Source: Shewanella sp. 10N.286.48.A6 (lineage in GTDB: Bacteria; Pseudomonadota; Gammaproteobacteria; Enterobacterales; Shewanellaceae). Taken from it: 64,000 nucleotides of DNA. This document shows positions 31,663 through 37,223 of this stretch, in pieces; positions within the stretch are counted from its first letter, which is position 1, and each line of letters begins with the position of its first letter. The translations under genes and the position numbers were made by a program. The stretch is from assembly GCF_002873135.1 (NCBI RefSeq), contig NZ_MCVI01000019.1:1-64000 (forward strand), written 5' to 3'. The notes below the pieces were generated by a model, which worked only from the letters and a program-made list of their open reading frames with translations, had not been told where the DNA came from and ran no database searches.

Positions 31663-34600
31663 TTGTTACCAGAAAAATTTAAAAAATCAGAAAAAACGAT
31701 CAAGCATAGTTGGTTTGGGCGCCTGTATTTAGGCGCTGCAGATGCCATTAAATTATCGGCTAATGGCATTGAGTTTCGTGCTCAGCAAGGTCGTTTATTT
31801 AGGCATTGGTTTACAGCAAAACCTGTACCTCAGCTGCAACAATTTACTTGGCAGCAACTGGTTGCGCCAGCCGAGTTTACCCCAAGCTTTTTAGGCAGTT
31901 TGCTTCGATTTCAAGCCCAAGGCCAGTTTTATCAGGTGCCATTTCTGGGCTACTTTTCTAAAGCCAAATTCAAACAAGAGATTGAACAATATTGGGCGCA
32001 AGCTCATGAGCAGCAGCTGTGTGAGTTAGTTGCCCGCATTGAGCATACCTTAGCGAATAAGTATTTACGTCAGTCGTTACTTGGGCAAATGCAGCCTCGC
32101 ATTAAACGTGAATATCGCCGCTGGTTTCCATGGTGTAAATCGGCGGGGTTATCGGTAACGCTTAACGCTGCGTTAGTGAAATTATCTGGCTTTTATCATT
32201 GGAATAACGCCAAGATAGCGCAAATTCGTTCGGCTTATGTTGACAGGCAATTAGTCAAATATGCAGACTTTTTTGATAATGTTGAATCAAAGCCATTAAC
32301 CGATAAACAGCGCCGCGCTTGCGTTATAGATGATGATAACAATTTATTACTGGCAGGGGCTGGCACCGGTAAAACCAGTGTAATGGTGGGGCGTGCAGGC
32401 TATTTAGTTGCCAGCGGTCAAGCGCAAGCAGCGGATATTTTATTGTTAGCTTACGGCCGCAAAGCCGCTGATGAAATGGATGACCGCATCAAACAAAAAC
32501 TGGCCACAGATGCAATAAAAGCCAGCACCTTTCACAGCCTTGGTTTAAGGATTATTGCAGCAGTGGAAGGCAAGCAGCCCAGTTTGTCACCATTGGCAGA
32601 AGATGACCAAGCCAAAGAGAAATGGTTACAACTCCAGCTTGATTACTTGCTTAAAGATGAGGTTTTCCGCAAACGGCTGTGTGAGTTTTTTAGCCAATAT
32701 TATTATGTGGAAAAAAGCCCATTTGATTTTGAATCCGAAGGCGAGTACTTCCAATACTTAACTGACAATGATATTCGCACGCTTAAAGGCGAGCGGGTTA
32801 AGAGTTTCGGCGAACTGTATATTGCTAACTGGCTATTTAAAAACGGCATTGAATATCGCTATGAAGCCAAGTATGAGCATGATGTTAGTAGTGTTGATTT
32901 TCGCCAGTACCAGCCTGATTTTTACCTGCCAGAATATGATGTTTATATTGAATATTACGGCATTGATGAGGCTAATAATACCGCCAGTTATATCGATAAT
33001 CAGGCTTATCTTGAGTCGATACAGTGGAAACGCGAGTTACATCAACAGCATGATACTGCCTGTATTGAGCTATTTTACTATCAGCATAAAAAGGGCCAGT
33101 TAACGGCAGAATTGCAACAGGCATTAACGGCATTTGAACTGCAATATGCGCCGCTGCCCGATGACGCGATACTGGCAACCCTTAATGAGCTTGGGCGGGT
33201 GACTGAATTAGCCAAATTATTTAGTCAGCTTATTGGTTTATACAAAGCGGCTTGCCTTGATAATAAAGGCCTAGACAAGCTATTTAATCAAGCCACTGAT
33301 CCCAAGCAAAGCCGTAAGGCATTTGAATTGCTCCAGCCCATATTAACCGCTTACCAACAGCAGTTAGCTGCAAATGGCGATATCGATTTTGAAGACATGA
33401 TTGCCAAGGCGCTTAACTATATACAAACAGGGCAATTCATTAGCCCGTGGCGTTATATTATGGTGGATGAATTTCAAGATATCTCCGAGCTTAGAGCGCG
33501 TTTAGTTAAAGCATTAACACAGGCTTACTCAGCACAGAGTAAAACCACAGCCTCATTATTTTGTGTTGGCGATGACTGGCAGGCTATTTATCGTTTTAGT
33601 GGCGCAGATGTCAGCCTAACGACCCATTTTAGTGACTATTTTGGCGCAGTTGCGACAAGCTATCTTGACCAAACATTTAGATTTAATAGCAGCATTGGCG
33701 ATGTTGCTACCCAGTTTGTCACTAAAAATCCGGCGCAGCTTAAAAAACAGATTCGCTCCAACGTGACAGTGACCCAAGCGGCGGTGTCAGTGATTAAGCG
33801 CGGCGAACATGAAGCCGCCACAGGTGACAACCCAAGCCCTAATGCGGTAGCACAAGCATTGTCGGCGATTAGTGCTAGGGTCAATAAGCTTAAAGCTGGT
33901 ACAAAACAACCGACAGTGTACTTACTGGCTCGGTTTTGGTTTCAGCTGCCAGATAGTAACGCCCTAAGACTACTGAATCAGCAATACTCCAATATAACCA
34001 TTGAGTGTCAGTCCTTTCATGGCGCTAAAGGTAAAGAGGCTGACTATGTGGTGATCATCGGGATGAAAACCGGCCTGCATGGCTTTCCATCAAATAAAAT
34101 CATCCCGCCTTTGTTAGATGCCTTTTTAGCAAAAGAAGAAGACTTTAAGTACGCTGAAGAGCGACGGTTATTTTATGTGGCGTTAACTCGTGCTAAGCAT
34201 CGCGCCTATGTGCTGGCCGATATGACCGACGTCAGCCCGTTTGTTACAGAGCTTATTCAAGATGGTTATGCCATTGAGCAAGCAGAATTTACGACCTCTA
34301 TAGTGCAAAGGCTGTTTGAAGATATTAACTGTGTTCGCTGCACCACAGGAGTATTAAAGCAAAGAACCGGTAACTTTAAATCATTCTATTCCTGTTGCCA
34401 CTTTCCTTTGTGCGACCACAAAGAAGCAGGGTGTGAGCTTTGTGCAAGCCCCATGACCCGTAAACGCTTTGCAGGCTTTAAAGTCTGTCTTAATGATCAA
34501 TGCGCCCATACCACACCGTTATGCAGCGTTTGCGGCGCAGATATGGTGCTAAGAAAAAGCGCTCGGGGGGAATTCTGGGGCTGTAAAAATTATCGTGGTA

Positions 34601-34713
34601 GTCATCGTCAAAGTAGCAAGGCTAACAGCAGGAAAAGTTGCACCCATGCAGTTGATAAAGCCAAGTTAGTACTGCCGAAGTCGATCGACTTGAAAGGAGT
34701 GAGCCTTCTCTGA
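31663..34713 (+). CDS. HelD-like UvrD/Rep superfamily 1 helicase with inserted PD-(D/E)XK-type nuclease motif and C-terminal zinc ribbons
   Basis: The 1016-residue protein resembles E. coli helicase IV (HelD, 684 residues) across its motor. Walker A AGAGTGKT is at residues 231-238, AYGRKAADEMDDRI follows, Walker B DEFQD is at 602-606, then VGDDWQAIYRFSGA and VALTRAKHR. Two additions stand out. Around residues 385-470 an insertion includes PDFYLP (418-423) and VYIEYYG (Glu430), the acidic core pattern of PD-(D/E)XK nucleases. From residue 890 three CxxC clusters form topoisomerase-type zinc ribbons. The start is TTG at 31663 with a weak ribosome site. Probable role: unwinding and nicking of damaged or foreign DNA. 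Convergent with the FtsZ-like gene. Confidence 0.88.
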   Translation: MLPEKFKKSEKTIKHSWFGRLYLGAADAIKLSANGIEFRAQQGRLFRHWFTAKPVPQLQQFTWQQLVAPAEFTPSFLGSLLRFQAQGQFYQVPFLGYFSKAKFKQEIEQYWAQAHEQQLCELVARIEHTLANKYLRQSLLGQMQPRIKREYRRWFPWCKSAGLSVTLNAALVKLSGFYHWNNAKIAQIRSAYVDRQLVKYADFFDNVESKPLTDKQRRACVIDDDNNLLLAGAGTGKTSVMVGRAGYLVASGQAQAADILLLAYGRKAADEMDDRIKQKLATDAIKASTFHSLGLRIIAAVEGKQPSLSPLAEDDQAKEKWLQLQLDYLLKDEVFRKRLCEFFSQYYYVEKSPFDFESEGEYFQYLTDNDIRTLKGERVKSFGELYIANWLFKNGIEYRYEAKYEHDVSSVDFRQYQPDFYLPEYDVYIEYYGIDEANNTASYIDNQAYLESIQWKRELHQQHDTACIELFYYQHKKGQLTAELQQALTAFELQYAPLPDDAILATLNELGRVTELAKLFSQLIGLYKAACLDNKGLDKLFNQATDPKQSRKAFELLQPILTAYQQQLAANGDIDFEDMIAKALNYIQTGQFISPWRYIMVDEFQDISELRARLVKALTQAYSAQSKTTASLFCVGDDWQAIYRFSGADVSLTTHFSDYFGAVATSYLDQTFRFNSSIGDVATQFVTKNPAQLKKQIRSNVTVTQAAVSVIKRGEHEAATGDNPSPNAVAQALSAISARVNKLKAGTKQPTVYLLARFWFQLPDSNALRLLNQQYSNITIECQSFHGAKGKEADYVVIIGMKTGLHGFPSNKIIPPLLDAFLAKEEDFKYAEERRLFYVALTRAKHRAYVLADMTDVSPFVTELIQDGYAIEQAEFTTSIVQRLFEDINCVRCTTGVLKQRTGNFKSFYSCCHFPLCDHKEAGCELCASPMTRKRFAGFKVCLNDQCAHTTPLCSVCGADMVLRKSARGEFWGCKNYRGSHRQSSKANSRKSCTHAVDKAKLVLPKSIDLKGVSLL

Positions 34714-34762: not shown

Positions 34763-35920
34763 TTATTGCCCTGCTGTTTTTTGATTTAAGTTACGGGTAT
34801 AAGTCGGGACATCGAGCTCAGCTAAGCAATGATTATCATCGTTACTGCCTACAGACTTTTCTTTTAGAAAATCGTGAAGATTAAGCAGCTCTACTGATGC
34901 AAAGCGGTCTGTTGAAGGCGGTACTTTAGCATCATCCATAATGATTACTGATTGGTCGGTTGCGGCTTGAATACCGGTGGCAATCACCATCAATTCCAGC
35001 TCGCAATCCAGCTCAGGCACTATGGTTAATCCAATTATCACCAATGCACTAGGGTCGAGTTGCTGCTGCAGGGTTTCGCCAATCATATTATATTGGCTGA
35101 GCTCAATATTTTCAGATGCCATCACACTGACAATCGCTCCTTTGGCATGAGTCAGCTCAACGTCTTGCAGTAATGGATTTTTAAGGGCGCTATTAATCGT
35201 CACTTGGATATCTGCACCTGGCATTTGCTTCGCCACTCCCATAGCGGCTCGTCCATGGTGATTTACCACCGCAATGAAATCATTGAGATCGATATTAATC
35301 AAACCTGATTGGCTAATGGTGGTGGTTAACCCCAGCAATACATCTTGCAAAATACGGTTACTTTCAAAAAAGGCGTTAACTAGGCTGACTTTCTTATCCA
35401 GAGTTTTAGCCAGTTTGTCATTAGGTAACACGATTACAGCATTGGCGTGCTGCATTAATTTATCGACGCCTTTATTGGCCAGAAGATTCCTTTGCTGGCC
35501 TTCAAAACTAAAAAGGGTGGTAACCACGGCAATTAATGGTTTATTTAGCGCTGCGGCGACTGAAGCCATGAACGGGATGGCGCCAGTGCCTGTGCCGCCG
35601 CCCATACCGCCAGTAATAAAAATGATGTCGGCGAGTTCAATAAGCTCTTTTATTTGTGCTTCAGACTCCTGCGCAGCAGCTTGACCTTTTTCGGGCTTAG
35701 CGCCCGCACCTAATCCTTTAGTGGCTTCAATGCCAATTTGTAATTGAGTGCTAGATTGAGAGGCCTGCAGTGATTGTGCATCAGTATTGACGGCAATCAG
35801 CAGGACGTTGTCATTGAATGGCGATTGGCTAAGTTGATTTATGGTATTGCAGCCGCAGCCTCCCACACCGAAAACGGCAATGCGAGGTGATGGGCTGTTT
35901 TGCGTCAGTAAGTCAAACAT
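34763..35920 (-). CDS. Second, divergent FtsZ-like tubulin-family GTPase
   Basis: The 385-residue protein has the complete FtsZ core: GVGGCGCNTINQL (18-30), AVNTDAQSL (43-51), the tubulin signature GGMGGGTGTG (104-113) and the T7-loop catalytic triplet Asn209-Asp211-Asp214, so GTP hydrolysis and polymerisation look intact. The C-terminus ends in LDVPTYTRN (369-377), a diverged version of the FtsZ tail peptide LDIPAFLRK that binds FtsA/ZipA. It lies outside the usual ftsQAZ cell-wall cluster and follows a WYL-type regulator by 53 bp with a good AAGGAG site, so it is probably an accessory paralog, not the essential FtsZ. Function unknown. Confidence 0.88.
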   Translation of the reverse strand: MFDLLTQNSPSPRIAVFGVGGCGCNTINQLSQSPFNDNVLLIAVNTDAQSLQASQSSTQLQIGIEATKGLGAGAKPEKGQAAAQESEAQIKELIELADIIFITGGMGGGTGTGAIPFMASVAAALNKPLIAVVTTLFSFEGQQRNLLANKGVDKLMQHANAVIVLPNDKLAKTLDKKVSLVNAFFESNRILQDVLLGLTTTISQSGLINIDLNDFIAVVNHHGRAAMGVAKQMPGADIQVTINSALKNPLLQDVELTHAKGAIVSVMASENIELSQYNMIGETLQQQLDPSALVIIGLTIVPELDCELELMVIATGIQAATDQSVIIMDDAKVPPSTDRFASVELLNLHDFLKEKSVGSNDDNHCLAELDVPTYTRNLNQKTAGQ

Positions 35921-35973
35921 CGATTCATCTCCTTGAAGTTACGCTAAGCAGCGTAACTTAAGGATGCGACAGC

Positions 35974-36981
35974 CTAAGACGCAGCATTTTGGTAGCGCGC
36001 ATTGACCTTGTTAATTAATCGAGTGAAATGGGCTCTTAATTTGGCCGGTGCTAGCACTTCGACATTGTCAGCCATGCTCCACAACAATGTTCTTAATCCT
36101 GAGGTGTCTTCAACGGTTGCTTCAACCAGATAGCGTTTATCTTCTAACTGCTTAACAGTTTGATTGTCACTGAGCTTGGCATTGCGCATGATAAAGTTTG
36201 CTGATGCAGAAAAAAGCAATTCAATATCAATGGTCTCCGATTTATTTTTATGCTTTCTAGCAGCAAGCTCTGCATCACTTCGAGTAATTGTAGGCGTATC
36301 GAGTAATCGCACATTGCGTAATAAGTCGATGGATTTTGCAAAAAGCTTTGGTTCAACTGTGCCAATAGTAAAGGTCAGCAGCGCGACGCCATCTGTTATC
36401 TGAATGCCTTCGGGATTGATGGGCGTGTAATCAATCCAATAGCTTTTCCCTTCGATAACCCGTTTTATTTGGCAGGCAATCTGACGCTTGTTAAGCAGAG
36501 CCGATTGCACGGCTTCAAATATCTGTGGAACTTGCTGCTCAATAATAAAAGGAAAAGGCTTAGGTAACTGCGCTACACGGCATGCCCAGTAAAGCCAAGG
36601 ATTATCAGGGTCGTTACCTAATACTTGATCCGCACGTTCAAAGTAGGGGGTCAGCTGCTTAAGGCTTTGGGGAGGCAGCAGTTGGCTAGCGCTGTGCTTT
36701 AGGGTGTGAAAGGCTAATGCCATATGATTGTCCATCAAGGTCAGATTAAGACCACGCCAACAGGCGGCAATCGACCAGCCAAAAGGTTTGCTTCTATCAT
36801 CGAGCACTATGCCAAAAAGCCCCATATCATGCATGGCTTTTAACTCTCGTTGCACAGTTCTTAACCCCACATCAAAGTCGCGACTTTGCAGTCTTTCGTT
36901 GATGTCATTAGCGGTAATACGCCTTGGGTGAGTAGGTATTTGCTCCAGCATGGCAATTTGGCGTTGGATATTGATTTGCAT
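35974..36981 (-). CDS. WYL-type transcriptional regulator (HTH plus degenerate WYL domain)
   Basis: The 335-residue protein has an N-terminal winged HTH (about residues 5-65, ITANDINERL and GLRTVQRELKAM) and a central domain of the WYL layout (about 150-225), with IDYTPINPEGIQITDGVALL where the signature WYL is usual, so the tripeptide is not preserved. A C-terminal WCX-like domain follows (about 250-330). WYL proteins sense nucleic-acid or nucleotide ligands and often control DNA-damage and phage-defence genes. It is the first gene of a likely two-gene operon with the FtsZ paralog, which it probably regulates. Confidence 0.85.
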   Translation of the reverse strand: MQINIQRQIAMLEQIPTHPRRITANDINERLQSRDFDVGLRTVQRELKAMHDMGLFGIVLDDRSKPFGWSIAACWRGLNLTLMDNHMALAFHTLKHSASQLLPPQSLKQLTPYFERADQVLGNDPDNPWLYWACRVAQLPKPFPFIIEQQVPQIFEAVQSALLNKRQIACQIKRVIEGKSYWIDYTPINPEGIQITDGVALLTFTIGTVEPKLFAKSIDLLRNVRLLDTPTITRSDAELAARKHKNKSETIDIELLFSASANFIMRNAKLSDNQTVKQLEDKRYLVEATVEDTSGLRTLLWSMADNVEVLAPAKLRAHFTRLINKVNARYQNAAS

Positions 36982-37160
36982 CGATGTTCTCCCGATTATC
37001 TATGCCATGAGCATAATACTACCCTGCGACAGAATCTGACGCACTAAGCATTTTTTGTATCATTATCTGATATTTAACCATGAGTAAAAGTTAAAGTTTT
37101 AGCTTGGGAATTACGTTGAAGGAAAGCGGAATCGAATACAGGAAGGGGCAACAAAACAAC

Positions 37161-37184
37161 GGGGGGACATATGGGGGGACATAT
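37161..37184. repeat. Perfect 12 bp direct repeat (GGGGGGACATAT twice)
   Basis: Two abutting copies of GGGGGGACATAT lie between the WYL regulator promoter and the fis terminator. The G-rich composition contrasts with the AT-rich surroundings. No function can be assigned from sequence. Confidence 0.8.
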
Positions 37185-37189
37185 CAACA

Positions 37190-37223
37190 AAAACGGGCTT
37201 TCCATTGCTGGAAAGCCCGTTTT
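37190..37223 (-). terminator. Intrinsic terminator of dusB-fis
   Basis: AAAACGGGCTTTCC and its exact complement form a 14 bp stem with a 6-nt loop, ending in T residues on both strands. It lies 26 bp past the fis stop. Confidence 0.88.

Follow-up and report, generated by a model that had tools for sequence, protein, structure and literature searches.

Why would a bacterium that encodes a canonical FtsZ carry a second FtsZ gene behind a dedicated transcriptional regulator? The question is posed by a two-gene unit on the reverse strand of a 64,000-nucleotide stretch of the Shewanella sp. 10N.286.48.A6 genome (contig NZ_MCVI01000019.1, positions 1 to 64,000; hereafter the window), in which wyl, encoding a DriD-like regulator of 335 residues (35974–36981), is followed after a 53-bp gap by a gene for an FtsZ paralog of 385 residues (34763–35920). 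A reading made from the sequence alone had proposed these positions, this gap and a ribosome-binding site between the genes, and the open reading frames (ORFs) and the sequence bear them out. Here we describe evidence that the pair is conserved, mobile and more than a chance association, that a putative operator precedes each gene, and that the DriD-like switch very probably controls the ftsZ paralog gene. The reading that we prefer, with a rough probability of 0.48, is that of a mobile two-gene checkpoint module, in which the DriD-like switch would induce a divisome-targeted FtsZ as an SOS-independent division brake.

Conservation and mobility of the WYL–FtsZ pair

The paralog was detected in 33 of 152 Shewanellaceae genomes, all among the 129 of the genus Shewanella (a count that leaves out second matches in G008, G026, G045 and G046), with 51–93% identity by tblastn, and in 33 of 33 loci wyl is the immediately preceding gene in the same orientation. 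The pairing that the sequence-only reading proposed to seek by a neighbourhood search is thus found throughout these Shewanella loci, as well as in other genera (see below), and the notion of a curiosity of one genome is ruled out. The intergenic gap spans 31–82 bp in 31 loci; the genes overlap in L053 and form a fused frame in L063, where a frame change near the wyl end, seen in one genome, was given no weight as proof of contact between the proteins. One locus, L054, is degenerate in both genes and was excluded when proteins were aligned and wyl promoters counted; the WYL alignments and Mantel test were made without L063. Across 31 units the WYL and FtsZ distances covary strongly (Mantel r = 0.94; 0 of 2000 permutations as high), and the Shewanella units occupy at least 10 different neighbourhoods.

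In the window, the unit is flanked by a converging helicase IV-like gene (31663–34713) and by fis-dusB (from 37249 on). Among 28 fetched fis loci that lack the unit, four (L187, L188, L190 and L194) have the helicase end no more than about 150 bp away from the fis-side match; the window unit therefore appears to be a clean insertion of about 2.4 kb. In the other 24, the 1.5 kb covered contained no match to the helicase.

Further FtsZ paralogs are present across the order, in which 394 genomes were searched; the genus labels used below (Oceanisphaera-like, Aeromonas-type, Moritella-like, and Pseudoalteromonas for G488 and G993) were inferred from near-identical named proteins. The same tandem pair occurs in 12 genomes of one Oceanisphaera-like genus, with WYL proteins about 30% identical to that of the window. 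Twelve plasmid records contain a WYL relative; among the nine opened (H6, H8 and H9 were left out), five are Pseudoalteromonas megaplasmids that carry the tandem pair, and no FtsZ paralog was found in the stretch covered of the other four. Among other Alteromonadaceae, 12 of 295 genomes match at E = 1e-85, of which two are Pseudoalteromonas with the tandem pair. In six Alteromonadaceae loci wyl and ftsZ are convergent neighbours; in L215 a single gene separates the two, and around the FtsZ paralogs of L209, L210 and L212 no WYL gene occurs within 1.5 kb. In L209, L210 and L227 the paralog, without WYL gene or operator, lies in a region resembling an integrative and conjugative element (ICE), with a gene for a 407-residue protein directly upstream.

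In a tree of 64 WYL proteins, the 19 from tandem pairs make up one side of a 99/100 branch, outside which falls the G193 protein, whose gene is merely near an FtsZ paralog. The tree takes in 44 unlinked WYLs (nine of them database proteins without a neighbourhood view, and one from L094, where an FtsZ-like gene starts 5.6 kb away at the locus end); convergent and plasmid WYLs were left out. A WYL protein of this clade (at least 337 bits) is encoded in 44 of the 394 genomes of the order, 23 with a second FtsZ and 21 without; the neighbours of G341 and G350, which have both, were left out. Against strict pairing, all 21 of 21 sampled genomes of one genus, taken as Aeromonas, keep the clade WYL without an FtsZ paralog, and in nine of nine fetched Aeromonas-type loci the regulator stands beside a kefB-like gene, with no FtsZ. 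In the class, 25 of 369 genomes gave WYL matches, and outside the order none of the 24 matching genomes other than G000 has an FtsZ paralog within 1.5 kb of the WYL gene.

A putative operator before both genes

Beyond what the sequence-only reading had described, an inverted repeat was found before both genes. The pattern TRCGWC-N7-GWCGYA was written after inspection of the Shewanella wyl promoters and of both promoters of the convergent pairs, and was fixed before the ftsZ sites of the 33 tandem loci, the Pseudoalteromonas sites and the Aeromonas-type wyl sites were found. A genome pattern search places putative operator 1, TGCGTCAGATTCTGTCGCA on the reverse strand (37025–37043), 62 bp before the wyl ATG, and 6 bp past it lies TATTAT (37013–37018, reverse strand), the probable −10-like box of the wyl promoter according to the consensus of 32 promoters. 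Putative operator 2, TGCGTCTTAGGCTGTCGCA on the reverse strand (35965–35983), lies 63 bp ahead of the ftsZ ATG and overlaps the stop codon of wyl.

The pattern precedes wyl in 32 of 32 Shewanella loci, 60–77 bp from the start (30 exact, two with one mismatch), compared with no exact match and three with one mismatch among 640 shuffled promoters. It recurs 62–80 bp before the ftsZ start, within the gap or over the wyl end, in the 33 Shewanella loci (25 exact, seven with one mismatch and one with two); of 317 control promoters from the same loci, none matched with one mismatch or fewer and seven matched with two. All six convergent pairs have an exact operator on the wyl side and, at the separate ftsZ promoter, an exact one in four cases, one mismatch in another and two in the last. 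Because the operator stands before each gene, and before two separate promoters in these convergent relatives, control of ftsZ by the WYL protein is very likely, as the sequence-only reading had suspected of the regulator and its neighbour; the simplest reading is that the protein would control ftsZ whatever the gene order.

The other groups add variations. In Pseudoalteromonas the operator is exact before ftsZ in seven of seven cases, and no operator was found in the wyl promoters (best 3–5 mismatches). The Oceanisphaera-like wyl promoters (n = 10) match with one mismatch in nine cases and two in one, and the operator was not found in the six Oceanisphaera-like ftsZ promoters inspected; in L125, L127, L131 and L134–L136 of this group, the stretch between the two genes contains a GC hairpin with a T run behind it, reminiscent of a terminator or attenuator. 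The lone paralog of L212 has an exact operator; none was found for the Moritella-like, L139 and L210 copies. Among the Aeromonas-type loci (L250–L258 and L203), an exact operator lies 66–67 bp upstream of the WYL gene in five of five inspected.

The commonest offset of a −10-like box past the operator is 6 bp for wyl (18 of 32) and 7 bp for ftsZ (15 of 33). At 16–18 bp, no −35 hexamer exceeded 4/6; such weak −35 hexamers would be compatible with an activator role. The core and spacing of the operator are the same as those of the published DriD site, which also lies near the −10 of its promoters. It is well supported by these sequence comparisons that the WYL protein recognizes the predicted operators, of the TGCGAC-N7-GTCGCA type, before its own gene and the ftsZ paralog gene. 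A regulon wider than the unit was considered and rejected for exact sites: the window's genome holds four, two of them inside the unit (reversed control pattern, three), and sites outside the unit number 27 in 13 further unit-bearing genomes (1–4 each) and 11 in seven genomes without the unit (0–3 each), with no meaningful excess in the former and 2–9 occurrences of the reversed pattern per genome. At this level there is no sign that the predicted regulon extends beyond the unit.

The gap itself contains a hairpin, AAGTTACGC-TGCTTA-GCGTAACTT (35936–35959, reverse strand), with a value of −20.7 kcal/mol for the 53 nucleotides, and AAGGAG, the ribosome-binding site of the ftsZ paralog (35929–35934, reverse strand), which stands 8 nucleotides before the ATG and is kept in most relatives.

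The regulator resembles DriD

The regulator had been correctly called a WYL protein, with a domain that proves divergent: Pfam returned WCX (3.3e-10) and no match to PF13280 (WYL), and a WYL model of PADLOC matched at 3.6e-12. Its AlphaFold2 model (predicted local distance difference test score 82.7; predicted template modelling score 0.56) contains, in order, a winged helix-turn-helix (wHTH), three helices, a WYL-type barrel and WCX, which is the domain order of DriD. Searched against solved structures, a profile of the WYL proteins gave DriD entries as its top matches, which cover the WCX region, and Foldseek returned DriD at ranks 1–7 and 9–12 (whole-chain root-mean-square deviation about 13 Å), then PafBC, then CapW and BrxR; VIA-align ties DriD, CapW and BrxR. 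Together, these comparisons make the assignment to the DriD type well supported.

The available portions of the DriD reports describe a site, ATACGAC-N7-GTCGTAT, whose distance to the −10 of weak promoters is constant, and activation of the protein by single-stranded DNA (ssDNA) (PMC12340889), and, in Caulobacter crescentus, induction of the division inhibitor DidA without SOS (PMC4211646). As far as those portions go, the present unit shares with DriD–DidA a wHTH–three-helix–WYL–WCX regulator, the core CGAC-N7-GTCG, weak promoters with the site near the −10 and a predicted division output, but differs in its effector: in Caulobacter this is DidA, a small FtsN-binding membrane protein, whereas the linked gene here encodes not DidA but an adjacent, mobile FtsZ paralog (PMC4211646, PMC12340889). 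They also list several DriD targets (didA, bapE, recJ and dnaG), whereas the exact sites found here point to the unit alone (PMC4211646, PMC12340889). We infer both gating by ssDNA and the sign of control by analogy with DriD, and consider it fairly probable that the WYL protein is an activator answering to ssDNA.

The FtsZ paralog

The label of FtsZ paralog was likewise sound. The protein matches Tubulin (1.6e-39) and FtsZ_C (1e-16) in Pfam, the core of its model matches the FtsZ fold, and its score against TIGR00065, the ftsZ equivalog of NCBI, is 288.3 bits, below the curated cut-off of 295.2. The GTP loops and the T7 residues N209, D211 and D214 are invariant over 46 aligned rows, some of them canonical-like, and with its GTPase signature, T7 catalytic residues and FtsZ_C domain the paralog belongs to the FtsZ/tubulin superfamily. 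The canonical FtsZ of the same genome is encoded on a different contig, next to a gene read as ftsA, and shares 34% identity with the paralog; in a tree, a 100/99 branch separates 19 canonical-like FtsZs from the paralog. Ratios of nonsynonymous to synonymous substitution (dN/dS) fell within 0.03–0.22 in all but one of 12 pairwise tests, the exception being 0.43 at a dS of 0.016; this suggests purifying selection on the paralog. Public records, where looked at, name these proteins merely 'cell division protein FtsZ'. A different arrangement was seen in L140 (G441), where a second ftsZ follows a gene reading as a second ftsA, beside phage-like genes; its product groups with the canonical FtsZs.

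In canonical FtsZ, a C-terminal docking peptide binds FtsA and ZipA. The tail of the window paralog, LDVPTYTR, resembles the canonical peptide LDIPAFLR, and from it we infer that the paralog may dock on FtsA/ZipA-type partners. Most Shewanella copies end in L[DE][IVT]PTY[TS]R, the Moritella-like copies and L139 in LNIPAF[IL]R, and the Oceanisphaera-like genus in the almost canonical LDIPAFLRQRQQ. A conserved NLHDFLK-type motif, which in the window paralog reads NLHDFLK, is a further feature of the Shewanella members. A loose tail pattern matched 49 of 52 tails, of which three (L200–L202) are doubtful; two that it missed (L216 and L212) end in TDIPA- or TDIPS-type motifs, and P0047 and L124 have no tail. 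In L124 (G193), a gene reading as Sir2 lies directly downstream of the paralog, and a WYL gene of another clade lies two genes off, divergent.

The invariant T7 catalytic residues and GTP loops, the low dN/dS and the Oceanisphaera-like tail would also suit an inducible spare, that is, a divergent working FtsZ that the WYL protein induces to rescue division when a phage inhibitor, SulA or similar blocks the canonical protein; phages do make FtsZ inhibitors. We consider this unlikely: identity to canonical FtsZ is about 34–38%, no more, the canonical FtsZs stand apart on their own branch, and DriD, the closest regulator, drives an inhibitor in the available part of its description (PMC4211646). 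Highly improbable, in our view, is a filament with another job, such as placing or segregating the DNA of a carrier element, that leaves the divisome untouched; the megaplasmid copies, the copies without WYL in ICE-like regions (L209, L210 and L227) and the two tail-less members speak for it, but most groups retain the docking-like tail and the match to FtsZ (9.8e-66) is far better than that to the plasmid tubulin RepX (6.6e-7). In the checkpoint module that we prefer, the paralog would act on the divisome, and the chances that its product slows or stops division appear to us evenly balanced.

Other second FtsZs and division inhibitors differ from this protein, so far as the available sections of the sources describe them. 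FtsZl1 and FtsZl2 are also second FtsZ-family proteins in genomes with a canonical FtsZ, but FtsZl1 is without identifiable T6–H7 elements and has vWA partners, whereas the paralog has a whole FtsZ fold, FtsZ_C and T7; FtsZl2 has no conserved neighbours and continues after its GTPase domain in a C-terminal region some 300 residues long, whereas the paralog has 385 residues overall, with a short tail after FtsZ_C (PMC2875224). DicB and CbtA are likewise encoded by mobile elements and act on FtsZ or its partners, but are small unrelated proteins rather than FtsZ paralogs under a WYL switch. The sequence-only reading knew of no named system with this pair, and we found neither a named system nor a report of one in the literature searched, with most subscription papers and bioRxiv outside its coverage.

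Phage and defence context

No WYL relative was found in 50,697 phage records or among the IMG/VR pattern matches. FtsZ matches occurred in 22 phage records, with at most about 40% identity among the 20 listed (17 of those unannotated at the match), and an IMG/VR search gave two matches at 36%; on these results, the idea of a phage gene was rejected. Neither protein was assigned by PADLOC to one named anti-phage system, the FtsZ paralog matching 0 families and the regulator generic WYL models only.

Annotated defence genes lie no more than 10 kb from four of the five Pseudoalteromonas plasmid copies: type I methylase and specificity genes at one, viperin and DUF262 at another, ring nuclease and McrC at a third, and viperin and reverse transcriptase at the fourth; the fifth is near a HipA-type toxin gene. 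PADLOC was run on neighbour proteins chosen by eye, with no control set: of ten from such loci, six match at 1e-10 (pVip, Drt1a, PDC-M26 and type I methylase among them) and four do not; of ten Shewanella neighbours, five have no match and two match weakly. L053 adjoins RT_UG34 and PDC-M72B, and L036 a CARF-RtcR gene. Beside the degenerate L054 are McrBC-like and DUF262-like genes, as read by eye; PADLOC gave no family for three neighbours tested at E = 1e-8, and a fourth is a D12 methylase in Pfam. A PDC-M72B-like gene lies upstream of the paralog in both L053 and L139, and a GIY-YIG-like gene downstream in both L053 and L137, the kinship being partly judged by eye. We regard the defence-island context as a lead, not a statistic. 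The suggestion that the unit sits in variable islands holds for Pseudoalteromonas and a few Shewanella copies; most Shewanella copies stand alone among core genes and the neighbours of Oceanisphaera-like copies are mostly similar, both of which weigh against a purely defence-island reading.

These surroundings bear on the idea of a CapW/BrxR-like repressor, under which the unit would be silent until derepressed by phage-made nucleic acid and the paralog would poison the divisome, killing or stalling the infected cell. According to the available part of the source, WYL proteins that regulate defence islands bind inverted repeats upstream of the genes that encode them, and the wHTH–WYL–WCX layout, such a repeat and a partial presence in defence islands are common to BrxR/CapW (of BREX and CBASS) and the present unit (PMC9122601); the regulator model has this fold, and CapW and BrxR come next in the fold search and are tied with DriD by VIA-align. 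However, they match less well than DriD in Foldseek, it is DriD that shares the site core, no BREX or CBASS genes were noted in the unit, most Shewanella copies are among core genes, and the PADLOC evidence comes from proteins picked by eye. We therefore judge such a repressor to be quite improbable.

Several observations concern the surroundings alone. At two independent sites (31663–34713 in the window; L040–L044, L047, L049 and L052) the unit has a HelD-family gene as a neighbour: at one site the gene is convergent, with 75–92% identity among copies, and at the other it lies about 850 bp downstream, beside a gene read as uvrB, with about 35% identity to that of the window. A helicase partner was not adopted, as HelD-family genes at two unlike sites may be chance. 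The 3′ side of fis (37140–37200) looks like an insertion hotspot; G047 (L179) shares the repeated GGGGG[GT]ACATAT with the window and has small phage-like helix-turn-helix genes instead of the unit.

A proposed checkpoint module

Several lines of evidence lead us to prefer the checkpoint module: the pairing in every Shewanella locus across at least 10 neighbourhoods, kept in tandem and convergent order; the grouping of linked WYLs on one side of a 99/100 branch, together with operators before both genes judged against matched controls and scarce elsewhere; DriD as the best match by profile and Foldseek, with the same site core and spacing, and its induction of DidA without SOS, in the available portions of the reports (PMC12340889, PMC4211646); and a paralog that keeps its catalytic residues, FtsZ fold and docking-like tail under purifying selection. 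In the proposed sequence of events, ssDNA arising from damage, stalled replication or phage attack would release the WYL regulator, as in DriD, and the released regulator would activate the two weak promoters from operators over the −35 region. The induced paralog would bind GTP, polymerize and dock through its tail on FtsA/ZipA-type partners, where it would mix with or compete against the canonical Z ring, delaying septation until the signal fades. The module would travel between strains as a small cassette and be placed, in some hosts, in defence islands. A broader version, in which a mobile genome-integrity and immunity module senses ssDNA and induces a dedicated FtsZ that enters the divisome and halts damaged or infected cells, as a brake or an abortive-defence effector, strikes us as rather doubtful.

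The unit represents an FtsZ family with its own switch that has so far gone unremarked, and its exact operator makes the claim readily testable. If the checkpoint reading is true, the DriD kind of SOS-independent checkpoint would extend from Caulobacter to the gammaproteobacteria, with regulator, operator and target staying together while the gene order changes, and the pair would provide a test case of a division protein itself serving as a regulated brake or spare part.
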